Shown here: positions 31,815 through 47,712 of the stretch, one piece after another
How the letters are laid out: every line of letters starts with the position of its first letter
How positions within the stretch are numbered: position 1 is the first letter of the stretch
Source of the DNA: an uncultured Acetatifactor sp.
GTDB lineage: Bacteria; Bacillota; Clostridia; Lachnospirales; Lachnospiraceae
Direction of reading: 5' to 3'
DNA: 64,000 nt
Assembly (NCBI GenBank): GCA_944384205.1
Contig: CALWSL010000009.1
Coordinates: 62,001-126,000, forward strand
Translations under genes and position numbers: made by a program
The notes under the pieces: model-generated
Told to the model about the DNA's origin: nothing
Database searches by the model: none
Seen by the model: the letters and a program-made list of their open reading frames with translations, nothing else

Positions 31815-32660
31815 ATGCACTCACCTTTGGAAATTGCAAGAAATTATGTGGAAATCGGAATACATAAGGTAAAGCTGTCCGCCTTTAAGATGGTAATATT
31901 GGGTATTTTTGCAGGCATGTTTATCGGATTCGCAGGGATATCCGCAACAACGGGCGGCGCAACAGTGGATAATGCTTCCCTGTCGCGTCTGATTAGCGCG
32001 TGCCTGTTTCCTGCCGGTATGGCAATGGTTATTGTTGCAGGCAGCGAGTTGTTTACCGGCAATAATCTGATTATTATTGCTCTTTTGGAAAAAAAGATAA
32101 AGCTCCACGAAATGTTGAAGAACTGGTTTTTTGTCTTTATCGGAAACTTTACAGGCGCGGTGATTGTCGCTGCGCTGGTAGTATACGGGCATATACCTGA
32201 CCTGTTCGGGGGAAAGCTGGCAGAAAGTATCGTAAATTCCGCATTGCATCGTGTGAATCTTTCTTTTGGAGATTCTTTCATTAGAGGGATTCTTTGCAAT
32301 GTATTAGTGTGTATTGCGATTTGGGCGGCTTTTGCCGCAAAAACGGTTTCCGGTAAGCTGCTGATGACCTTCTGGCCTGTTATGACCTTTGTGCTTTGCG
32401 GCTTTGAGCATAGTATTGCAGATATTTATTTCTGTATGGCAGGTATTTTTACGGCGGGCGAGTATGGGATTGCAGCAGAAGGGCTGACGATAGGAAGCTT
32501 TTTATTCAAAAATCTGCTTCCGGTTACGCTGGGAAATATTGTTGGAGGTGCGGGTATTGTAGGTACGGGATACTGGCTGATGTATCTGCGTCATACGCCG
32601 CTTTACAGTATGCCGATTGAAGCAGAACAGGAAGAGATTGATATTGCGGAAGAGTATTAA
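31815..32660 (+). CDS. Formate/nitrite transporter (FNT) family protein
   Basis: A 281-residue pentameric-channel type membrane protein with six hydrophobic segments. Both FNT signatures are present: VIVAGSELFTGNN near residue 80 and GILCNVLVCIAIWAAF near 155, with the FEHSIADIYF segment carrying the conserved central histidine. FNT proteins move formate, nitrite, hydrosulfide or small acids; in a fermenting anaerobe formate is the most likely substrate, but no pyruvate formate-lyase gene is adjacent. It probably shares the promoter at 30791 with the CbiT-like gene. Confidence 0.92.
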   Translation: MHSPLEIARNYVEIGIHKVKLSAFKMVILGIFAGMFIGFAGISATTGGATVDNASLSRLISACLFPAGMAMVIVAGSELFTGNNLIIIALLEKKIKLHEMLKNWFFVFIGNFTGAVIVAALVVYGHIPDLFGGKLAESIVNSALHRVNLSFGDSFIRGILCNVLVCIAIWAAFAAKTVSGKLLMTFWPVMTFVLCGFEHSIADIYFCMAGIFTAGEYGIAAEGLTIGSFLFKNLLPVTLGNIVGGAGIVGTGYWLMYLRHTPLYSMPIEAEQEEIDIAEEY

Positions 32661-32716
32661 ATGCAGGGGGTATTTTTTAATCTGACTGTACGATAATATT
32701 AATATAAGCTATGGAA

Positions 32717-32758
32717 AGCGACTGTCAAACCAAAGGAATGGTGATGAAGTCGCTTTTT
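32717..32758 (+). terminator. Likely terminator after the FNT gene
   Basis: AGCGACT (32717-32723) pairs with AGTCGCT (32748-32754), followed by T5G. The loop is long (24 bases), which lowers confidence. Confidence 0.5.
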
Positions 32759-32887
32759 GTCTGTGATTTTGAGCGCAACCGACTTACCCCTGGAGAGGTA
32801 AGCAATAAAAAAGATTGTATAACAATTGCGTTATACGAAGGTGAAAGTCTTGTGTTCATATTCAAAAAGGGGCGGCAACAGGCGTGA
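32744..32887 (+). CDS. Possible 47-residue small protein
   Basis: ATG 32744 is preceded by AAAGGA 6 bases upstream. The product runs MKSLFVCDFERNRLTPGEVS, then NKKDCITIALYEGESLVFIF, then KKGRQQA. It has no signal peptide, and I recognise no family. Its stop lies inside the perfect hairpin GGCGTGA-TT-TCACGCC. The start overlaps the right arm of the hairpin at 32748, so both cannot function simply. It may be a real small gene or a chance frame in a degraded region. Confidence 0.3.
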   Translation: MKSLFVCDFERNRLTPGEVSNKKDCITIALYEGESLVFIFKKGRQQA

Positions 32888-33011
32888 TTTCACGCCAATT
32901 TTGTGGTATTTGGCGCCATAACATCAGAAGGGCTTCGATGTCGGACGATAAATAAATATATGGTGATGCAATCAATGGTTATAAGTACATAAAAGAGAGG
33001 TTCTAATAAAA

Positions 33012-33737
33012 GTGAAAATTGCGGTTTGTGATGACAATAAAACGGCAAGAGACAATATTGTTTCTCTGATAAAAAAACAGGTATCCGATGCCGATATTAC
33101 GACTTTTCCATCGGGAAAAGAAATGATTTGTTTCGGAAAACATTTTGACATTTGTTTTCTTGATATCGCCATGGAAACGGTGTCCGGAATGGAGGTTGCA
33201 AAGCATATCAGGGAAGAGCAGGAAAAGGGAAGCAGTACAAAAAGCATTTTGATTTTTATAACAGGTTATCGGGAATATATGGAGGAAGCCTTTGACGTAA
33301 ATGCGTTTCATTATCTTGTAAAGCCCATTGATGAGAAGAAGTTTGCAGAGGTTTTCAGGCGTGCACGAAGGGAAGTGTCTGCTGCAGAAGCACAGAACAA
33401 AAAATATGTCATCGTAAAAAGCTCCGGCATACAGCAGAAAATATTTCTGAAGGATATTTACTACATTGAGAGCAGCAATAAAAAAGTTATTTTTCGTACA
33501 AAAGGCGGGAAGCTGGATACCTATGGAAAAATAGAAGAGTGGGAACAGGAGCTGGGCGATACCTTTTATCGGTGCCACCGGTGCTATCTTGTGAATATGG
33601 AAAAAATTTCTGCGTACAGCGCAGACACGATTTGGGTAATAAGCGGGGACAAGCTGATTCTTGCGAAAAAGAGATATTCCGGTTTTATAAGACAGTATAT
33701 GCGATATGCAAAGGACGGAGGAATTGTGAATGTTTGA
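33012..33737 (+). CDS. LytTR-family response regulator (AgrA/VirR-like)
   Basis: A 241-residue response regulator. The receiver domain (about 1-120) has the acidic pair in AVCDDNKTA (D7, D8), the phospho-acceptor D51 in CFLDIAME, T84 and K104 (YLVKPID). The C-terminal half (about 132-236) is a LytTR DNA-binding domain: YVIVKSSGIQQKIFLKDIYYIES, VIFRTKGGKLDTYGKIEEWE, FYRCHRCYLVNMEKISAYS, a normal full-length pattern. Translation starts with GTG at 33012. It overlaps the kinase gene by 8 bases. Unlike true agr loci there is no agrB or agrD beside it. Confidence 0.92.
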   Translation: MKIAVCDDNKTARDNIVSLIKKQVSDADITTFPSGKEMICFGKHFDICFLDIAMETVSGMEVAKHIREEQEKGSSTKSILIFITGYREYMEEAFDVNAFHYLVKPIDEKKFAEVFRRARREVSAAEAQNKKYVIVKSSGIQQKIFLKDIYYIESSNKKVIFRTKGGKLDTYGKIEEWEQELGDTFYRCHRCYLVNMEKISAYSADTIWVISGDKLILAKKRYSGFIRQYMRYAKDGGIVNV

Positions 33738-35175
33738 GATGACGTTGCTTTCCGTTTTGATTCATCTGATAAACAGTATATCCGGCGGCATTTATACAGA
33801 AAGCTTTTTGAAGGAAAAGTACCGGAAAAATATAACTTTGGCAATATGGATAAGCATACACTCCTTAAGTCAGATTGTAATATTTGAAATACTAAGCAGC
33901 AAGTACCCGGTAAATGACATTGCCGGAGTAGTTGTGAATATCGTAGTTCTGTATTTTCTGCAATTCCTGTTGTTTGAGAAAGATTTGTCAAAACAGTTTT
34001 TTGTTATTTGCAGCTTCATGGCAGGAAAGGAAGTTGTGAAATATATCGCCAGTGTATTCAGCATTGTGCTAAGTGGATTATGGGGCAGGATTTTTAATTT
34101 CCTGATTTTAAAAGAAAAAATAAATACGTTGGAAGAGGTTACAATATGGGGAAATATTGCTGCTGTGGTAATTTGCATGATATGTGCCCTGTTTTATGCC
34201 CTGCTGTTTGCTGTCTATTTGCGGCTGATTAGCAGAAAATTTATTAAAAAAGAGTACCCTTTGCAGATACGGGAAAGTATCTTTTTAGTTTTGCCAGGCA
34301 TCGCGGCGCTGTGTATTTCCATAGCGATTAAAATGATGATAGTGTCCGTTGAAAATGGAATGACTATCATCATTTATGATACCGTTCCGGCAACAAAATT
34401 CTGGATACCCGTAATCTGTATTCTGCTGCTTTCCACAATCGTTGCCAATGTAATGCTGTTTCAGAAATTGGTGCAATATCATGAAGAAACCGCAAAGCGC
34501 GTTATGCTGGAAAATCAGGTACGGCAAATGCAGAAACAGGTTACGGAAATACAGGATATTTACGCGGATATGCGAGGACTTCGGCATGACATGAGAAGCC
34601 ATTTGTCCAATATTTCACTGTATGTACAAAACAGAATCGGTGCAGACAGTGAAGAATTAAAAAGCTATATCGGGAAAATGGAAGAAACAGTGGGCAGGCT
34701 GGATTTTACTTATCAGACGGGCAATCCGATTACGGATATCATAATTTATCAAAAAAGTAAGGAAGCGGGGAAAAAGCAGATAAAATTGGATGTTGAGTTC
34801 CGATATCCTTCGGAGCTGAAAATAGATGTTTATGATATTGGGATTATTTTAAATAACGCATTGGAAAACGCCGTAGAAGCGTGCAGCAAAGTGGAGGGCG
34901 AAAAGCGGATTTCTTTACATTCTTATGTGAAAGGAAACTTGTTTTTTATAGAAATTGAGAACAACTTTTCAGGGCAAATCACGATTGATAAAGAAACGGG
35001 ACTGCCGGCGAGCCGTAAGAAGGATAGAAAAATGCACGGACTTGGAATGTCCAATATCCGGAGATGTGCGAAGAAGTATATGGGCGATATTGACTTTGTT
35101 ATCAGTGATGCGGACAATCAAAAGATATTTAATCTTACAGTTATGATGTATGGGAATATTTCGCGTCCGGATTAA
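33730..35175 (+). CDS. GHKL-domain sensor histidine kinase (AgrC-like)
   Basis: A 481-residue membrane sensor. The first 240 residues hold about six or seven hydrophobic segments, as in AgrC-type receptors for peptide signals. A coiled linker (VMLENQVRQMQKQVTEIQDIYADM) leads to the phospho-acceptor box GLRHDMRSHLSN with H286, and the C-terminal GHKL ATPase has NNALENAVEAC (N box) and HGLGMSNIR (G box). It overlaps the LytTR regulator by 8 bases and so forms a two-component pair. The signal is unknown. The cluster of unrecognised proteins starts 111 bases downstream. Confidence 0.92.
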   Translation: MFEMTLLSVLIHLINSISGGIYTESFLKEKYRKNITLAIWISIHSLSQIVIFEILSSKYPVNDIAGVVVNIVVLYFLQFLLFEKDLSKQFFVICSFMAGKEVVKYIASVFSIVLSGLWGRIFNFLILKEKINTLEEVTIWGNIAAVVICMICALFYALLFAVYLRLISRKFIKKEYPLQIRESIFLVLPGIAALCISIAIKMMIVSVENGMTIIIYDTVPATKFWIPVICILLLSTIVANVMLFQKLVQYHEETAKRVMLENQVRQMQKQVTEIQDIYADMRGLRHDMRSHLSNISLYVQNRIGADSEELKSYIGKMEETVGRLDFTYQTGNPITDIIIYQKSKEAGKKQIKLDVEFRYPSELKIDVYDIGIILNNALENAVEACSKVEGEKRISLHSYVKGNLFFIEIENNFSGQITIDKETGLPASRKKDRKMHGLGMSNIRRCAKKYMGDIDFVISDADNQKIFNLTVMMYGNISRPD

Positions 35176-35286
35176 AGTAGTTCGCGCCTTTTGTGTGAAG
35201 TCATAGTTTTACAGTTCCGATAAACAAAATAGGAACCTGATTGATACGAAACACTTAAATTACACAAAAAAGGAAGGGTGATTATA

Positions 35287-35997
35287 ATGTCAATGGAAAT
35301 TAACAATACTTATAGCGGTTATGCAGTAGCGAATGATACCGGTGCAACGCAGACGAAAGCGTGCAGTAAGGTGGAAGCAGATAACAGGAGCTATTCAAAT
35401 GTGGCGGAGTACACACAGTATTTGCAGCAGAAATATAGCTATATGAACACAGGAACGACTTCTATGCAGGGGGTTCCGACAACAGTGTCAGTATCAGGTG
35501 CATTTTTGAAGAAATGTATGAATGACCCGGAAAAAGCAAAATATCTGGAAGAAAATTTAAAAGCAATTCCCGATTGTATGAAAAGTCTGGTCAATTACAC
35601 AAGAACCATGCCGGGAAGTCCTGTTATGACTTATTCCAGTTATACAATTGATGAAAATGGAAATATTACCTGGATGGGTGGCTGCACGAATGACCCGGAC
35701 GGTAAAATCGCCAGAGAAAATGCGAAAAGAAAAGCAGAGGAGAAAAAGGCGGCAGAGGAAAAGACAGCTAAAAAGCGGGCAGAGAAGAAAGCAGAGGAAG
35801 AAATAGCTGCTGAGAGAAGGATAGAAAAACAGGCAGCAAAACGAGAAGCTGCCGGAAGAATAACCGAAGGCAGAAATGCAGGAGAGTATATTGTAACGAT
35901 TACAGGTACTAATATGAAAAATATTATGCGGAGTGTGACTGCCAGAGTATCCGGTATCCCTACATCTTCAACATCAGGCTTTGATATAAAGGCATAG
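35287..35997 (+). CDS. Unrecognised protein with Lys/Glu/Ala-rich helical region (possible DUF6033 relative)
   Basis: A 236-residue protein with no signal peptide or membrane segment. N-terminus MSMEINNTYSGYAV, then a domain with VAEYTQYLQQKYSYMNTG and YTIDENGNITWMGGC. Residues about 145-200 are an uninterrupted stretch of Ala, Lys, Glu and Arg, predicted to be one long helix, followed by a short compact end (GEYIVTITGTNMKNIMRSV). It vaguely recalls Lachnospiraceae DUF6033 proteins, from memory only. ATG 35287 has AAGGAAGGG about 9 bases upstream. It lies directly after the LytTR/GHKL pair and has its own terminator at 36018. Confidence 0.7.
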   Translation: MSMEINNTYSGYAVANDTGATQTKACSKVEADNRSYSNVAEYTQYLQQKYSYMNTGTTSMQGVPTTVSVSGAFLKKCMNDPEKAKYLEENLKAIPDCMKSLVNYTRTMPGSPVMTYSSYTIDENGNITWMGGCTNDPDGKIARENAKRKAEEKKAAEEKTAKKRAEKKAEEEIAAERRIEKQAAKREAAGRITEGRNAGEYIVTITGTNMKNIMRSVTARVSGIPTSSTSGFDIKA

Positions 35998-36017
35998 GAA
36001 AAAAGTGTAAGTAAATT

Positions 36018-36055
36018 ACTCACTATTTGCAGAAATGTAGATAGTGGGTTTTGTT
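36018..36055 (+). terminator. Terminator after the Lys/Glu-rich protein gene
   Basis: ACTCACTAT (36018-36026) pairs with ATAGTGGGT (36041-36049) with one G-U pair, followed by TTTTGTTTG. The gap from here to 36279 shows no recognisable gene. Confidence 0.65.
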
Positions 36056-36278
36056 TGTTCAAAGAAGTTGTACTTACTTCATAGTATGGAAGGCTGCTTA
36101 TAACTAATGGTTATTTGGTGCAAAGCAATAGTCGATGGGTGAAAGGTTTCTATAAAGAAAAAAGGTATCAACCGATATATTCCATGTAGTGAATGGTTAG
36201 AAAAATATAATATGCAAGTAGAGCTGAATAGTTGCCAGTTTGAAACAGCTATTCGGTAAGGAGAGTAGGAGAAAATAT

Positions 36279-37229
36279 ATGGCAATCAATATTTCAGATA
36301 AGACTTCCGCATATCAGATACAATATTTACAAAGCACGCATAGAACAATGTCAGCGCAGGGTGCTTTGAAAATATTATCGGAAAGTGGAAAAAAGCAGGA
36401 TAGACTGAGTATTTCAAGAACTGCGCAGAGTTTTTCAAAAGAGTCCATAGCTGCACTGATAGACAAAAGTGCAAATGTATCTACGAGTGAATTATCCTAT
36501 TATTTTGCAAATTATAATAATCCGGGCGCGATTCTGAATGCAATCAATTTTGGGGAGAATGTTTCCTGCGGATACAATCCTGATTTTAAAGAGTATGGCG
36601 TAATTTCCTTTGATTATAACGGAAGCAGGCAGGTAGTGCCAAATTATGCGGTGCCCAAGATTAACACAAGCACACTGCCATATGTCCGTGCTGTAAACAA
36701 CTCTTTGGTTCTGAATAATAGAAGCTATTATTCATGGACAACATGTAGTGGCAGCAAATACACATGGACTGTCAATAACGGAAAGATAGGATGGGCAGCT
36801 TCAGAGTCTCTGCTTGCAGAGCATACAAACCGGAAAGGGACTAATGATAAGTGGGAGATGCGAAAAGCCAGCAATATATTGTCTGAGCTGGCACAGGGAA
36901 AAAGTCTGTGGGGATATATATACAGGAATGAGGAGGTATTATCCGTCTGTGAGAAAGTCGGAATTTCTCCGGGCTTCTTTTCCATAGATGCAGGAGCCGG
37001 AAAACATACTTATATACTGCAGGAGTCTGGTAAGACCATAAATTTTGACGCAAATATAAAACGGTTGAACGATATAAACTGGATAGAAATCGGCTATAGG
37101 GAAGGTGATACCTTTTCTGTTTATGGCAATGAGTATGTCATAGACCACACCGGACATATCAAGGTTTCACCTGACGATACCTTTACATCAACAGAAATTG
37201 TCTATCCAAGCCGTTCACAAAAGATATGA
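36279..37229 (+). CDS. Unrecognised protein with FlgM-like N-terminal motif
   Basis: A 316-residue protein without signal peptide or transmembrane helix. It starts MAINISDKTSAYQIQY and has QDRLSISRTAQSF at residues 40-52. This D-x-[LV]-x-[IL]-S unit about 40 residues in also occurs in two neighbours and is the pattern at the N-terminus of the exported anti-sigma factor FlgM. The body is rich in Ser, Asn, Tyr and Trp (SYYSWTTCSGSKYTWTVNNG, YFANYNNPGAILNAINFG), like secreted proteins. ATG 36279 is preceded by GGAG 7 bases upstream. I do not recognise a catalytic motif. It sits in a run of similar unknown genes downstream of a LytTR/GHKL pair. Confidence 0.65.
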   Translation: MAINISDKTSAYQIQYLQSTHRTMSAQGALKILSESGKKQDRLSISRTAQSFSKESIAALIDKSANVSTSELSYYFANYNNPGAILNAINFGENVSCGYNPDFKEYGVISFDYNGSRQVVPNYAVPKINTSTLPYVRAVNNSLVLNNRSYYSWTTCSGSKYTWTVNNGKIGWAASESLLAEHTNRKGTNDKWEMRKASNILSELAQGKSLWGYIYRNEEVLSVCEKVGISPGFFSIDAGAGKHTYILQESGKTINFDANIKRLNDINWIEIGYREGDTFSVYGNEYVIDHTGHIKVSPDDTFTSTEIVYPSRSQKI

Positions 37230-37312
37230 AGCCATTATTTTTTTCTCATGAAAGCGTGTCTGTCATGAGGAAGGTATCAATGAAAAAACGAGTTATTTAA
37301 GGAGAAATTTTT

Positions 37313-38407
37313 ATGTCAGTATCAGGAATCAGAACAGGCTATCAGCAGTATAAGCAGTCAGAGAATGGTGTCCTTTTCAGGACATATTCCTATCAAAATG
37401 GCAAGGGGCAGGAAAACGTATATTATAGGAAGGATTGTGTGGAGCTTTCCAAAGATTCCTACACCACCTGCGCAATACCGACTGGTTCAGATAATTATGA
37501 AGAAATAAAAAATATGCTGAAAACGCAAAGCAGCGGGAAAATCGCGTTTCCCGGCAATCAGATGTTTTATGAAACTTACGAAGTAATGAAGGATTATTAC
37601 AGTGGAAAGCTGAATTGTGATGAAGTGAAAAATATCTTTAAGGAATACTTTTATCATTCCATGGGAACGACCCTGGAGCTTCGGGAAGAGGGCGGCATGG
37701 AAGAAGCAAGGCAAAATAACAACTATGTAAAACAATTTGCCACAAGTTATCTGGCAGGGCTTTATGAATATTTCAGCAGAGCGAATACCAGAAATGCCTG
37801 TACACAGAATATGCAGGAAGGAAAAGAGCTGATGGAAAGTAATGAGATGAACTGGAATGGAACCTATTACTATAATTCAGACTGGTACTACGCCTGTGAA
37901 GAGATGCAGGAGCTGTTCCGGGAAACAGCAAATGAACTGGCGGATGAATATGGTGCAGAGCATGTGGATTTCAAGTATGTGGAGCAGAATACAAAATTTA
38001 CACTGGATGGCGGGATTACCTATAATGGTGTATGGGATTCTATGGAGTGGCAGATTAACCACGACAGGGCAATCGGCGGCAGTTTCCTTGATAAAAATAT
38101 GGCTCCGCCAAAGGGTTTTGTGTATTGCAGCACCGCGTATTGGGATGGGAGAGACAATTTGGAAGGAATTAGGGATAACATAAAGAATAGAAAAACAATA
38201 TATTCCTCCATGATGCTTCTTTTATCCGCTGCCCAAAATACGGATGTAAAGACAAGTCTGCTGCTTAACCAGAATAATTACAGCAGATTTAGCGACTGGG
38301 AGGAAAACGATACCTATAAGAGCGCAATGTCTTTTCTGAAAAATTTTAATATTAATTGGAGCTTTAGGGGAAATCGTCTGGAGTTTTTGTTTATGGGAAA
38401 GAATTAG
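37313..38407 (+). CDS. Unrecognised protein with FlgM-like N-terminal motif
   Basis: A 364-residue protein, no signal peptide or membrane helix. N-terminus MSVSGIRTGYQQYKQSE with KDCVELSKDSY at residues 40-50, the same D-x-[LV]-x-[IL]-S position (D41-S46) as the preceding protein. The body is rich in Tyr, Asn and Glu, with NWNGTYYYNSDWYYACEEMQ and DGGITYNGVWDSMEWQINHD in the second half. AAGGAG lies about 8 bases before ATG 37313. No domain of known function is recognised. Context suggests it is one member of a set of related accessory proteins. Confidence 0.65.
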   Translation: MSVSGIRTGYQQYKQSENGVLFRTYSYQNGKGQENVYYRKDCVELSKDSYTTCAIPTGSDNYEEIKNMLKTQSSGKIAFPGNQMFYETYEVMKDYYSGKLNCDEVKNIFKEYFYHSMGTTLELREEGGMEEARQNNNYVKQFATSYLAGLYEYFSRANTRNACTQNMQEGKELMESNEMNWNGTYYYNSDWYYACEEMQELFRETANELADEYGAEHVDFKYVEQNTKFTLDGGITYNGVWDSMEWQINHDRAIGGSFLDKNMAPPKGFVYCSTAYWDGRDNLEGIRDNIKNRKTIYSSMMLLLSAAQNTDVKTSLLLNQNNYSRFSDWEENDTYKSAMSFLKNFNINWSFRGNRLEFLFMGKN

Positions 38408-38429
38408 CAAGTGAAGGAGGCAACACAAC

Positions 38430-38753
38430 GTGATAAGCACAGGATATCATACATACACTTGCACCATTCCATATCAAAAGCCGCAATCCCAAATGAAGGA
38501 TTTCGGCAGCACTGTGGTTCTGACAGAAAAGAACGATGCAGACAACAATGTTTATCGCAATGCGGTCACAAAATAATGCAGAGAGCACGAATCAGTTTTA
38601 TGATTATAAACAAATGCTGTATAGTATCTTGGAATAGGAGAAGGTGCATGTCGAGATACCGCAATACCATCTGGATTTTGGCTGGAATGGACATACGCTG
38701 CAATGTGAATGAGACAAGTTGTGGCACACATGGTATGAAAATAAATTTTTAAA
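38430..38753 (+). pseudogene. Decayed member of the unknown-protein cluster
   Basis: A strong AAGGAGG (38414-38420) and GTG at 38430 start MISTGYHTYTCTIPYQKPQS, whose opening resembles its neighbour's (SGIRTGYQQY). The frame stops at 38574-38576. Dropping one A from the A-run at 38570-38573 opens the continuation NNAESTNQFYDYKQMLYSIL. That continuation meets an in-frame TAG, then EKVHVEIPQYHLDFGWNGHT, an in-frame TGA (probably a former Trp codon), and DKLWHTWYENKFLKR. One frameshift and two stops indicate a decaying gene. Alternatively only the 48-residue opening peptide is made. Confidence 0.55.
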
Positions 38754-38765
38754 GAGGGTAAAGTT

Positions 38766-39455
38766 ATGGTAATAGCAGAAGTAAAAATTCAGGCAATGGT
38801 AAAGGCTGCAAAACCGGAAAAAGACACAGTAAGTGTGCACAAGCTTGATAGAGAATATCTGAGGTCGCAGGAAAGTCAGAATGCAGACCGGAAAGTGTTT
38901 CACAGGGACACATTGGAAATATCCCAATTATCGGAAAATGTGGAAGACATAAGAGAACGGATGAAGCATACAGTTTTACAATCGGCTGCATTATTCAGCG
39001 ATACAAGGGCTGGAATCTTAGAAAAAGTCAGAGAGGAAAAAGGGCAATATAGTTATTCTGATGTTGTGAATGTCGTTGGACTTAGTTATGCCAGGCTTTA
39101 TTCGGAAATGGAGGAACGCTATGAGAACCAGAATGAGCAATATTATAAGATAGATGGAACGCCGCTGACAAAGGAAGATGAGATAGAATGGCTGAATAAG
39201 GAATATGAAAATGAAGTAGAATGGCAGAAGGCTTGTGCCAAAGCAGCCGCTCAAAGAGAGGTTTTTCTGGGGCATATTTCATCGGTGCCAACGAAAGAAA
39301 TTGATGAATTGGAAGATAGCTTTTATCAGGCAAGGGATACCTATATGAAATTGCATCAGGAAAATAAGCAGGTGGGGAAGCCGCTGACTTTGCAGAATAA
39401 TGTGTTTGGTAATACGCAAATGTATGAAAAGCTGGATAAATTAAGAAATTTATAG
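38766..39455 (+). CDS. Unrecognised helical protein with FlgM-like N-terminal motif
   Basis: A 229-residue, mostly helical, charged protein with no signal peptide. The N-terminus is MVIAEVKIQAMVKAAKPEKD, and HRDTLEISQLSENVEDIRER at residues 46-65 again carries D-x-L-x-I-S, strikingly like the D-K-I-E-I-S of FlgM. The rest (SYSDVVNVVGLSYARLYSEM; EEDEIEWLNKEYENEVEWQK-like helix) suggests coiled or helical packing. GAGGG lies upstream of ATG 38766. No enzymatic motif is recognised. It ends the cluster before a 190-base gap and a toxin-antitoxin pair. Confidence 0.65.
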   Translation: MVIAEVKIQAMVKAAKPEKDTVSVHKLDREYLRSQESQNADRKVFHRDTLEISQLSENVEDIRERMKHTVLQSAALFSDTRAGILEKVREEKGQYSYSDVVNVVGLSYARLYSEMEERYENQNEQYYKIDGTPLTKEDEIEWLNKEYENEVEWQKACAKAAAQREVFLGHISSVPTKEIDELEDSFYQARDTYMKLHQENKQVGKPLTLQNNVFGNTQMYEKLDKLRNL

Positions 39456-39557
39456 GGGAGGCATTAGAATAATACCTGTGCTGAAGATGGTTATTTTATT
39501 AAGAGGAAATATTGGAATCAGGGTATCAACACAAAGGTATTAAGGGCAGTTTTCCTA

Positions 39558-39586
39558 TTGATAAAATATCCTTCTCGGCATATAAT
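39558..39586 (+). promoter_or_regulatory. Promoter of the RelB/PIN module
   Basis: TTGATA (39558-39563), exactly 17 bases, consensus TATAAT (39581-39586), 59 bases before the antitoxin start. Confidence 0.7.
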
Positions 39587-39644
39587 AACATTACAGACAC
39601 ATGCAAAACAAATATAATAGATTCATAGGAGAGGAGGAAGCATT

Positions 39645-39941
39645 ATGGCAGAACAGGTATTGATTCAATTTCGTGCAGATAAAGAATTGAAACAGGAAGT
39701 CGCAGAGATTTACGAGTCTCTGGGGATGGATTTACCAACAGCATTTCGTATGTTCATGACTAGAAGTAAGATGGTGAGAGGACTCCCTTTTGAAGCTACT
39801 TTACCGGAAACAACAGTTACAAGAGAAGAGGCTAAAAGAGCTTTTTATGCCTTAAGAGAACAAGCAGCCGATGTTCCTGCAATGACGCTTGATGAAATCA
39901 ATGAAGAAATTGCTGCTGCCAGGGCAGAAAGAAAAAGGTAA
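39645..39941 (+). CDS. RelB/DinJ-family antitoxin
   Basis: A 98-residue protein: VLIQFRADKELKQEVAEIYE then GMDLPTAFRMFMTRSKMVRG, LPFEATLP is the RelB/DinJ ribbon-helix-helix region with the conserved G-L-P-F-E; the C-terminus (MTLDEINEEIAAARAERKR) is the flexible tail. It is distantly similar to the antitoxin at 296. AGGAGGAAGC precedes the ATG. The partner is a PIN-domain protein starting 6 bases after the stop, an unusual combination compared with RelE/YafQ. Confidence 0.88.
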   Translation: MAEQVLIQFRADKELKQEVAEIYESLGMDLPTAFRMFMTRSKMVRGLPFEATLPETTVTREEAKRAFYALREQAADVPAMTLDEINEEIAAARAERKR

Positions 39942-39947
39942 GTGTTT

Positions 39948-40361
39948 ATGAAATATTATGCTGTTATAGATACAAATGTTTTCATTTCTGCGTTGCTTTC
40001 CAAAAGAGCAGATGCAGCTACCGTAAGAGTATTGAATGCTGTGTTAGATGGTATAATTATACCGTTGTATCATGAGGAAATTTTGACGGAATACGAGGAA
40101 GTACTTCACAGAAGCAAGTTTCATTTTAAAGATGAGACAATTCAACTGGTTATTAATGCTGTGAAACAATATGGTGTAGAAGTATTTCCACAACCTACGG
40201 GTGAAGTGTTGGTAGATATGGATGATTTGATATTTTATGAAGTCGCAATGGAGAAGCAGGATAATGATGCTTATCTGGTGACAGATAATCAGAAACATTA
40301 TCCGTCAAGACATTTTATTGTAACACCGACAGAGATGATGGAAATTATTGAGAAAAAATAA
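39948..40361 (+). CDS. PIN-domain toxin (putative toxin-antitoxin PIN family)
   Basis: A 137-residue PIN-domain ribonuclease-type toxin. The acidic metal site is visible: AVIDTNVFISALL (D8), HEEILTEYEEVLHRSKF in the middle, DMDDLIFYEVAMEKQDNDAYLVTDN near the C-terminus with the conserved D-A-Y-L-V-T-D-N, and HYP. ATG 39948 is preferred over GTG 39942 because AAAGG lies at the correct distance. PIN toxins of this group cleave RNA and normally pair with small DNA-binding antitoxins; the RelB-like gene immediately upstream serves that role here. Confidence 0.88.
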   Translation: MKYYAVIDTNVFISALLSKRADAATVRVLNAVLDGIIIPLYHEEILTEYEEVLHRSKFHFKDETIQLVINAVKQYGVEVFPQPTGEVLVDMDDLIFYEVAMEKQDNDAYLVTDNQKHYPSRHFIVTPTEMMEIIEKK

Positions 40362-40397
40362 AATAAATATTCGTGGAAAAACAAGGAGGAACAAAAC

Positions 40398-40739
40398 ATG
40401 CCGTTTATCGATTCAAAAATCACAGTACCGGTACCACAGGAGAAGAGAGAGCTTTTAAAAGCAGAGCTGGGAAAGGCTGTATCCATCTTAGGAAAGCCGG
40501 AAAGCTTCCTGATGGTAGGATTTGAGGATAACTATGACCTTTATATGGGCGGAAAGAAATTGGAAAAAGGAGCTTATGTTGCGGTAAGCTTATTCGGAAA
40601 TGCGTCAAAAACTGCCTATGAAAAAATGACTGCAAAGATTTGTGAGCTTTATGAGAAAGAGCTTGGCATTCCGGGCAATGCGGTCTATGTAACATATCAG
40701 GGCATCAGCGACTGGGGATGGAACGGCAGTAACTTTTAA
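40398..40739 (+). CDS. MIF/phenylpyruvate tautomerase-family protein
   Basis: A 113-residue member of the macrophage migration inhibitory factor / tautomerase superfamily. Pro2 directly after the initiator Met (MPFIDSKITVPVP) is the catalytic base of the family. AELGKAVSILGKPESFLMVGFEDNYDLYMGG and GIPGNAVYVTYQGISDWGWNGSNF match the MIF pattern, including the C-terminal W-G-W-N-G-x-x-F. It probably forms a cytoplasmic trimer. Bacterial substrates are uncertain. AAGGAGG lies upstream; the S1-domain gene begins 36 bases downstream. Confidence 0.9.
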   Translation: MPFIDSKITVPVPQEKRELLKAELGKAVSILGKPESFLMVGFEDNYDLYMGGKKLEKGAYVAVSLFGNASKTAYEKMTAKICELYEKELGIPGNAVYVTYQGISDWGWNGSNF

Positions 40740-46072: not shown

Positions 46073-46146
46073 TTTAGAATAAAAATGACGATAAAACATA
46101 TATGAACAGCATTTGACAAATATCCGGAATGCCGGGAGGGATGATC

Positions 46147-46908
46147 ATGATTGTAGGTACGATTAAGAATACAGTGAAGTTACAGATGATGGATACGAAA
46201 TGGCAGCAGAAGAAAGTAAATCCGGGCAGGAAGCAGAGCGAAATGACCCAGGAAGAAAGGATGCTTCAGGAATTGCGGGAACAGGCGAAGGATATTCGTG
46301 AGGGGAATAAATATACGAAAATCAGTGTCAAAATCCAGGCGGGTGGAACCCTGACTGCGGAAGAATTGAAGTATCTAAAAGAAAATTATCCCCAGGCATT
46401 ACAAGACTATGAAGAAATAAAAAGAGAAAAAGAGGCTTATGAGAGACAGTTAAAGAACTGCAGAACCAAGGAAGAGGTCGAAAGGGTTAAGGTTCAAAAG
46501 CTGGGCAGTTTTATGGCGGAGGCAAAAAAGATTTCTTCCAATCCCAGTATTCCCGATGATAGGAAGAAGGCATTATTGGGAAAAATACTGGCAAAGGTGA
46601 TAAATGTTTCGGAGGTTCATTACGAGTTTACAAAGTCTCTCCTCTATCAAAATCTTCCAACGGAGGAAGAGAAGCAGGCGAAGGAGGATGCGGCTGAGAC
46701 CACTGTTATGGAGCAGCAGGAGAATGTTCAGGAAAAGAATGTTTTAAAAGAAAATGCGCAAGAGGAGAATCTCTCGGAAAAGACAGAAATAACAGCGGAT
46801 ATTGATATTGTGGCTGAAACAAAAACCTTTGAACAGGCTGAGGAGGAAATCAAAGATTACCTGAAAAAACAAGATGCCTGTTCTAAAAAAATTGATGTAA
46901 CCATATAG
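46147..46908 (+). CDS. Unrecognised helical / coiled-coil protein
   Basis: A 253-residue, highly charged, helical protein with no signal peptide or membrane segment. N-terminus MIVGTIKNTVKLQMMDTKWQ. The middle has TLTAEELKYLKENYPQALQD then YEEIKREKEAYERQLKNCRT, which reads like coiled-coil linkers, and the C-terminal third is Glu/Asn/Gln-rich low complexity (QENVQEKNVLKENAQEENLS). ATG 46147 is chosen because GGGAGGG ends 6 bases before it; ATG 46141 directly touches that site. It precedes a similarly built gene by 24 bases. No function is recognised; it may belong with the unknown proteins at 35287-39455. Confidence 0.65.
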   Translation: MIVGTIKNTVKLQMMDTKWQQKKVNPGRKQSEMTQEERMLQELREQAKDIREGNKYTKISVKIQAGGTLTAEELKYLKENYPQALQDYEEIKREKEAYERQLKNCRTKEEVERVKVQKLGSFMAEAKKISSNPSIPDDRKKALLGKILAKVINVSEVHYEFTKSLLYQNLPTEEEKQAKEDAAETTVMEQQENVQEKNVLKENAQEENLSEKTEITADIDIVAETKTFEQAEEEIKDYLKKQDACSKKIDVTI

Positions 46909-46932
46909 ACTGATTTATAAGGAGATGTGATT

Positions 46933-47712
46933 ATGAAGGTAAAAAATATTTCTGTTTATGCAGGATGGGACGAAGTAAGTTTACGGCACAGAGAAGAAAC
47001 TGCAGAACAGCAGAAAAACAGAAAAAGTATTTCGGCGGTCAGTCTGAATCAACAGGATGACAGTATTTTAATGAAAAAACAGATGGCACAGAAGAAGGCA
47101 ATGAAAATAGTAGGAGATACCTTTGCTGCCGATCATACGTTGGATGAGGAACAGAACAGCCGCAGGGAAAAGGTGAAAGAACTGCGGCAGCAATTAACGG
47201 AAATCAAAGAATACATAAACGCGCAGAAGGAAATTCCGGAGGAAGAAATGATCGAAGAGGATAGAGCGGCACGGCATGAAGCGCTAAAAGAGTATCAAAA
47301 ACAATATGATAATATTAAAAATGAAATCATGTTAGAAATAGGAACAATCCGTGCAACAAAAATAGAACGTTTAAAATCTTCTCCTATGTTAGAGGCGCAG
47401 AAGGAAGTTGAAAACATTATGGAAGCTGCAGGTGATGAAATCATCGGTATGCTGATACAGGAGGCAAAGGATCATATCGACGAGGAGAAGGAAGAGAGGG
47501 AAGAGCAGGCGGAAAAAATTGCAGAGAAGCGGGAAGAAGAGAAAGAACGGCTTGAGAAATCCGAGGAAAAGAGCGAGGAAGCAGAAGCCATAACAGAAAT
47601 GATAAGGCAGTCTTCGTCAAGCGATTTGCAGAGAGAGATAGAACAGATGCTGGATAAATTGAAGCTGATAGAAGAGGATATTAAGGGCGCAGCAGTAGAT
47701 ACGCAATTATAG
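46933..47712 (+). CDS. Unrecognised coiled-coil protein
   Basis: A 259-residue, almost wholly helical protein. N-terminus MKVKNISVYAGWDEVSLRHR, with no signal peptide. Residues about 60-130 and 190-235 have heptad-like Glu/Lys/Arg runs (REEQAEKIAEKREEEKERLE is typical). A segment EVENIMEAAGDEIIGMLIQEAKDHIDE lies between. AAGGAG lies 8 bases before ATG 46933. It appears to be co-transcribed with the upstream coiled-coil gene. Function unknown; the opening K-N-I-S-x-Y pattern recalls the proteins at 35287 and 37313. Confidence 0.65.
   Translation: MKVKNISVYAGWDEVSLRHREETAEQQKNRKSISAVSLNQQDDSILMKKQMAQKKAMKIVGDTFAADHTLDEEQNSRREKVKELRQQLTEIKEYINAQKEIPEEEMIEEDRAARHEALKEYQKQYDNIKNEIMLEIGTIRATKIERLKSSPMLEAQKEVENIMEAAGDEIIGMLIQEAKDHIDEEKEEREEQAEKIAEKREEEKERLEKSEEKSEEAEAITEMIRQSSSSDLQREIEQMLDKLKLIEEDIKGAAVDTQL

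Follow-up and report, generated by a model that had tools for sequence, protein, structure and literature searches.

We analyzed a stretch of 64,000 nucleotides (the window), which covers positions 62001-126000 of contig CALWSL010000009.1 (C9) in the 3.15 Mb genome of an uncultured Acetatifactor sp. (Lachnospiraceae; GenBank assembly GCA_944384205.1). It contains four genes, here named A to D, that follow a LytTR response regulator gene and a GHKL histidine kinase gene. On balance, we favor the reading that A-D form a sigma28-controlled accessory set whose products are probably exported via the flagellar type III apparatus. A first-pass annotation of the same DNA had proposed accessory proteins that leave the cell by a flagellar-type or other signal-peptide-independent route, and had compared their N-termini to FlgM. 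The flagellar link held up, through sigma28-type promoters, co-occurrence with FlhA, FliD_C-like and FlxA-like neighbors, the lack of signal peptides and a recurring LytTR-GHKL-cargo gene order; the kinship with FlgM did not.

Layout and coding status of the cluster

All genes of the cluster lie on the forward strand, in the order LytTR, GHKL, A, B, C, a remnant and D, and the four open reading frames (ORFs) were confirmed as intact where the first-pass annotation had placed them. Judging from the ratio of nonsynonymous to synonymous substitution rates (dN/dS, calculated with a single homologue per gene), A-D behave as real genes, with all values within 0.10-0.20. The cluster is poor in guanine and cytosine, with a content of 0.397 vs 0.443 for the window. 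Its features are:

33012..33737, + strand: LytTR response regulator (receiver and LytTR DNA-binding domain; PF00072, E = 3.2e-16; PF04397, E = 3.5e-17)
33730..35175, + strand: GHKL histidine kinase (PF14501, E = 2.2e-21)
35196..35223, + strand: putative imperfect sigma28-type promoter TGAA-N17-CCGATAA, 63 nt upstream of A (from the sequence; consensus in an excerpt of PMC3720852)
35287..35997, + strand: gene A, DUF6033 protein of 236 aa without signal peptide (PF19498, E = 1.9e-9; dN/dS 0.16)
36153..36178, + strand: putative consensus sigma28 promoter TAAA-N15-CCGATAT, 100 nt upstream of B (genome pattern search)
36279..37229, + strand: gene B, 316 aa, motif D41-S46 (no Pfam or NCBIfam match; dN/dS 0.20)
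37313..38407, + strand: gene C, 364 aa, motif D41-S46 (no Pfam or NCBIfam match; 54 related loci; structure model; dN/dS 0.10)
38430..38576, + strand: remnant, a 48-codon frame with its own ribosome site, then broken frames (from the sequence)
38766..39455, + strand: gene D, 229 aa, motif D48-S53 (no Pfam match over cut-off; dN/dS 0.19)

The first-pass annotation had described all four genes as unknown. This is correct for B, C and D, for which a profile search at E ≤ 1 returned no Pfam or NCBIfam family over cut-off, and incorrect for A, which belongs to DUF6033 with 38.1 bits against a cut-off of 25. The gene at 38430, described as decayed, is in part an open frame of 48 codons, with broken frames downstream; its pieces, searched separately against the fetched ORFs, gave no useful match.

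Putative sigma28-type promoters upstream of A, B and related genes

The sigma28 consensus of Butyrivibrio fibrisolvens is TAAA(N16-17)MCGATAa and the general consensus is TAAA(N15)CCGATAT, as given in an excerpt of PMC3720852. A site of the form TAAA-N15-17-MCGATA is present upstream of B and, imperfectly, upstream of A. Across the source genome, the pattern TAAAN{14,16}CCGATAT had 19 matches, vs 7 for the same pattern written backwards. Among the 19 exact matches, only two were intergenic with a sense gene next to them (as called from the ORFs of our script, which are the longest non-overlapping frames throughout this work): one upstream of B and the other upstream of a flagellin gene.

The -10 box was then counted in two sets of related loci. 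For set 1 (60 fetched stretches), related genes comprised 67 seeds chosen by visual inspection near LytTR/GHKL genes and DUF6033 matches, plus their BLAST relatives, giving 113 of 1,055 ORFs; the same set served for the N-terminal contrasts described below. A sense CCGATAW preceded 19/74 related genes vs 21/437 others, which include some flagellar genes, and the antisense counts were 1/74 and 27/437. For the LytTR genes of set 1, the box was found in sense in 6/12 and in antisense in 3/12. Set 2, made up of later-fetched loci, omits 8 loci of set 1 and contains the near-duplicates L183/L184, L187/L188 and L175/L176. Here the sense box preceded 15/82 related genes vs 8/271 others (antisense 5/82 vs 11/271), and 9/13 LytTR genes, one of them (L210) with the box at the start codon, vs 1/13 in antisense. 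Putative sense-strand sigma28 -10 boxes are in this way enriched upstream of the related genes and of their LytTR genes in both sets of loci. A two-box sigma28 score of at least 9 of 10 was reached by 14/92 related genes vs 2.4 expected from shuffles, and by 22/599 others vs 19 expected; we prefer the -10 box counts as the simpler measure. Neither the promoter counts nor the FlhA counts that follow made use of the N-termini.

Co-occurrence with the flagellar export apparatus

The source genome encodes the flagellar export apparatus, as judged from FlhA (E = 9.3e-270), and also has a FlgM gene. The first-pass annotation had asked whether carriers of such genes also have flagellar export genes; the homologues do not occur mainly in genomes lacking flagella, and the opposite was found. 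Among congeneric genomes, DUF6033 was present in 50/62 with a strong FlhA match (E < 1e-100, some split across contigs) vs 1/11 without (Fisher p = 9e-6), the latter comprising seven genomes with no match and four with a weak or fragmentary one. At ≥90% completeness, these numbers were 27/31 and 0/6. G017, the one genome of these 11 with DUF6033, is 87% complete; both G017 and G020 have FlgM, so that FlhA may simply be missing from these assemblies. Separately, three congeneric genomes that are 94-100% complete (G011, G018 and G046) displayed FlgM-like matches with E from 1e-12 to 1e-14 and no FlhA match.

B, C and D were found in 6, 8 and 8 of 117 genomes, respectively (source included), all within a single genus and with internal stops in some copies. 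A scan of named genomes yielded 54 loci with relatives of C, mostly labelled Lachnospiraceae. FlhA was detected in 46/50 genomes with a C relative (the 54 loci less L223 and three taken, from their labels, as repeat genomes; the 50 include several close relatives) vs 124/250 genomes across the family, including one weak match in G344 (p = 5e-9). DUF4885, which occurs in related islands, was found in 5/250 family genomes, and 5/5 of these had FlhA (p = 0.029).

Related islands

Relatives of the cluster repeat the order LytTR, GHKL and then several leaderless genes. In the complete genome of Lachnospiraceae bacterium GAM79, a 20.5 kb stretch carries 14 related genes together with two LytTR-GHKL pairs; the island itself (L095/L199) measures about 16 kb. 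Locus L186 has the order A-like gene, B, one other gene, C relative, and in L172 and L173 B is followed by another gene and then C. A LytTR or GHKL label was present in 19/44 C-relative loci of at least 10 kb, a figure that is descriptive only because no background rate was computed. Eight of the 20 related-island proteins that were scanned exceeded a Pfam cut-off, namely as DUF3879, DUF4885 (2), DUF6033 (2), FlxA-like (E = 1.4e-18) and FliD_C (2; E = 1e-7 and 5.5e-8). A represents DUF6033, and in relatives such islands also contain DUF3879, DUF4885, FlxA-like and FliD_C-like proteins; B, C and D fall outside all of these families. Our literature search found no description of DUF6033, DUF3879 or DUF4885, and one may exist elsewhere, as subscription journals were mostly outside its coverage. 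Upstream of the C and B relatives in L097 and L108, what appears by eye to be an extracytoplasmic function (ECF)-type sigma factor gene with a likely anti-sigma gene takes the place of LytTR/GHKL.

N-termini and the D-x-[LV]-x-[IL]-S motif

The reported absence of signal peptides was borne out for A-D by a hydropathy scan: the best 19-residue Kyte-Doolittle mean within the first 50 residues was ≤0.26 in each protein, and no Sec-type hydrophobic N-terminal signal was found. A composition rich in Ser and Asn had also been claimed. When examined as the share of Ser, Thr, Asn and Gln in the first 35 residues, it was seen in A, B and C (0.38-0.41), with 0.19 in other ORFs, and not in D. Among 88 related proteins whose genes have a good ribosome site, these four residues made up 35% of the first 35 positions (vs 19%) and Leu 3% (vs 10%). 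A hydrophobic N-terminal segment was present in 0/88 related proteins vs 136/436 others.

The motif D-x-[LV]-x-[IL]-S was located exactly where the first-pass annotation had reported it, as D41-R-L-S-I-S46 in B, D41-C-V-E-L-S46 in C and D48-T-L-E-I-S53 in D; A lacks it. Its wider form D.[VLIA].[ILVF]S, counted within residues 16-115, was found in 32/236 related proteins vs 3.2% of 1,201 other ORFs from the same loci and 1.9% in shuffles, a frequency above chance. In the family of C, D41 is nearly invariant over 26 alignment rows (invariance threshold 90%). In that of B it is invariant over 7 rows, of which L184 and L188 lack the remaining motif. The alignment of D, formed by the window protein and relatives, shows R-D-x-[LF]-E-x-S in all five rows complete at this point (D and four relatives; a sixth row is truncated). 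A universal motif can be rejected, since it was found, in at least one member, in only 7/21 related families. Narrower counts were weaker: 8/867 ORFs vs 4.0 after shuffling, 6 vs 0.9 when a following Ala or Gly was required, and 4.2 vs 2.5 after weighting by family over 20 families. The short opening M-x-[IV]-x-x-[IS], which had also been likened to FlgM, is present in C and loosely in B, and absent from A and D.

The AlphaFold model of C had a mean predicted local distance difference test score (pLDDT) of 74, with most of the first 80 residues at low confidence and a predicted helical body. For B, modeled from a thin alignment of 7 rows, the mean was 64 and the first 83 residues were low. Neither model matched a PDB fold at E ≤ 0.001. 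A sequence search of solved structures returned telomerase reverse transcriptase for C (E = 0.0016 and 0.0018), which we judged to be a chance match, and nothing below E = 0.3 for the B profile.

Comparison with FlgM and other known systems

The kinship with FlgM suggested by the first-pass annotation was not supported. None of A-D matched PF04316 at E ≤ 1, and a profile comparison (hhalign) of 17 DUF6033 with 24 FlgM N-termini, in which those of B, C and D took no part, gave a probability of 6.9%. We reject homology to FlgM on the basis of family membership and of this single, unsupportive profile comparison of DUF6033 N-termini. The likeness that does exist is an element [DS]-x-[VL]-x-[IL]-S after a short leader in the FlgM of relatives, where 24 of 31 FlgM loci had been picked by a filter using that element. 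Apart from lacking a FlgM profile match, A-D differ in that the source genome has a separate FlgM.

A parallel in mode of regulation, and in that alone, is offered by the non-flagellar Fed, FspA, FlaC and Cia proteins of Campylobacter jejuni. An excerpt of PMC9856085 assigns sigma28 promoters to the Feds and to FspA, and flagellar type III export to several members of the whole group. These are single genes of a Gram-negative bacterium, whereas the present ones form Lachnospiraceae gene islands beside LytTR/GHKL pairs and are predicted to be exported. By title and opening of the abstract, no work on flagellar-secreted effectors or on a link between LytTR/GHKL and the flagellum in Lachnospiraceae was found, in a search that left subscription journals mostly uncovered. 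A further likeness is to the uncharacterized genes of the Bacillus sigmaD regulon such as yjcM, as DUF4885 has a B. subtilis member. That member is probably YjcM. The gene yjcM is among those controlled by SigD in B. subtilis, according to an excerpt of PMC5200910.

Proposed mechanism and alternative explanations

Under the favored reading, the release of sigma28 late in flagellar assembly would lead to the synthesis of A-D, with read-through from the B promoter into C and D. The leaders, rich in Ser, Thr, Asn and Gln in A-C and with a conserved D-x-Phi-x-Phi-S at residues 41-53 in B-D, would direct the proteins to the flagellar type III export apparatus, and the exported products may have their effect on the filament or in the surroundings of the cell. 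The LytTR/GHKL pair might tune this process, as suggested by gene order. No Rfam family was found in window positions 32600-40500, and a repeat search at the locus gave no obvious array of regulator sites.

Several points weigh against a flagellar accessory set. No sigma28 site lies directly upstream of either C or D, and the LytTR gene of the window is preceded only by ACGATAA at 32945, with no good -35 box. FlhA was present in 17/17 carriers of B, C or D, which is not significant taken alone (p = 0.057), and FlhA is missing from 4/50 genomes that carry a C relative; all of the co-occurrence statistics ignore phylogeny and near-duplicates. Profile search detected no known flagellar domain, including FlgM, in A-D. 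D has no Ser/Asn-rich leader (0.15), and the contrasts in N-terminal composition and hydropathy are partly circular because the seeds were picked by eye. Both the export of A-D and their transcription by sigma28 are inferred.

The promoter and FlhA evidence shows co-regulation, not export, and A-D could belong to the sigma28 regulon and yet stay in the cytoplasm, where they would regulate motility, serve as assembly factors or bind components of the flagellum. Export is not known for FlxA and other sigma28 targets, and E. coli flxA is FliA-dependent and lacks an obvious flagellar function, as far as an excerpt of PMC4183435 goes. We consider this unlikely, if still a serious competitor: a mosaic, fast-changing gene content, with B, C and D each in so few genomes and sometimes broken by stops, would be unusual for core regulators, and the leaders of A-C and the FliD_C-like neighbors point outward. 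Improbable in our view is an Agr- or bacteriocin-like locus for communication or competition, in which LytTR/GHKL would sense a signal and A-D would be the products, with no relation to flagella. The pair does stand directly upstream of fast-changing genes, and does so repeatedly in relatives. However, the window regulator scored 38 bits against the AgrA equivalog cut-off of 400, no AgrB/AgrD-like gene was recognized among the scanned neighbors (no profile search was aimed at them), 25/44 C-relative loci of at least 10 kb have neither a LytTR nor a GHKL label, and sigma28 sites precede the LytTR genes themselves. A different signal-peptide-free route of export, type VII/ESX, seems very improbable and is close to refuted for the source genome, in which the marker EssC (TIGR03928) had no match over cut-off; only 3/17 carriers of B, C or D had one. 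DUF6033 was somewhat commoner with EssC among congeneric genomes (14/16 vs 37/57, p = 0.12).

Returning to flagellar export, a broader proposal may be made tentatively, and we would sooner expect it to fail than to hold. Flagellated Lachnospiraceae are gut commensals, and to our knowledge their exported proteins are little characterized. Their flagellum might serve as a general delivery route. Islands of mosaic content under sigma28 control, many of them equipped with a LytTR/GHKL switch, would encode strain-specific sets of proteins without a structural role (B, C, D, DUF6033, DUF3879, DUF4885, FlxA-like and FliD_C-like). These would leave through the flagellar type III apparatus, and their targets would be neighbors, mucus or host. 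In several families, a shared D-x-[LV]-x-[IL]-S would mark the boundary of the export leader. If true, this would give several families of unknown function a regulon, a likely route and a direct test. It would also offer the commensals a possible means of acting on neighbors or host, and would be a new way of protein export for such bacteria.

Additional observations

Stand-alone matches to the C-terminal part of FlhA were considered as a second export part and rejected, as the proteins begin, by eye, with an XRE-type helix-turn-helix (HTH). In L115:8871-9797 and L117:9261-10259, and also in L118-L128, this HTH is N-terminal and the FlhA C-terminal part (PF00771) lies further on. In L115 and L117 they adjoin apparent fliD and fliS genes. 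All of these proteins would be transcription factors with an export-gate-like domain.

Elsewhere in the window, positions 46129-47712 (+ strand) hold a further two genes for charged proteins without a signal peptide, which may form another small set of this type. The gene at 46927 resembles L109_15479, L119_1074 and L108_10741, the first two of which have upstream CCGATA boxes. Downstream of D, a RelB/PIN pair (39645-40361) is followed at 40398-40739 (+ strand) by a leaderless MIF-family protein (PF01187, E = 1.5e-8), cytokine-like by family.

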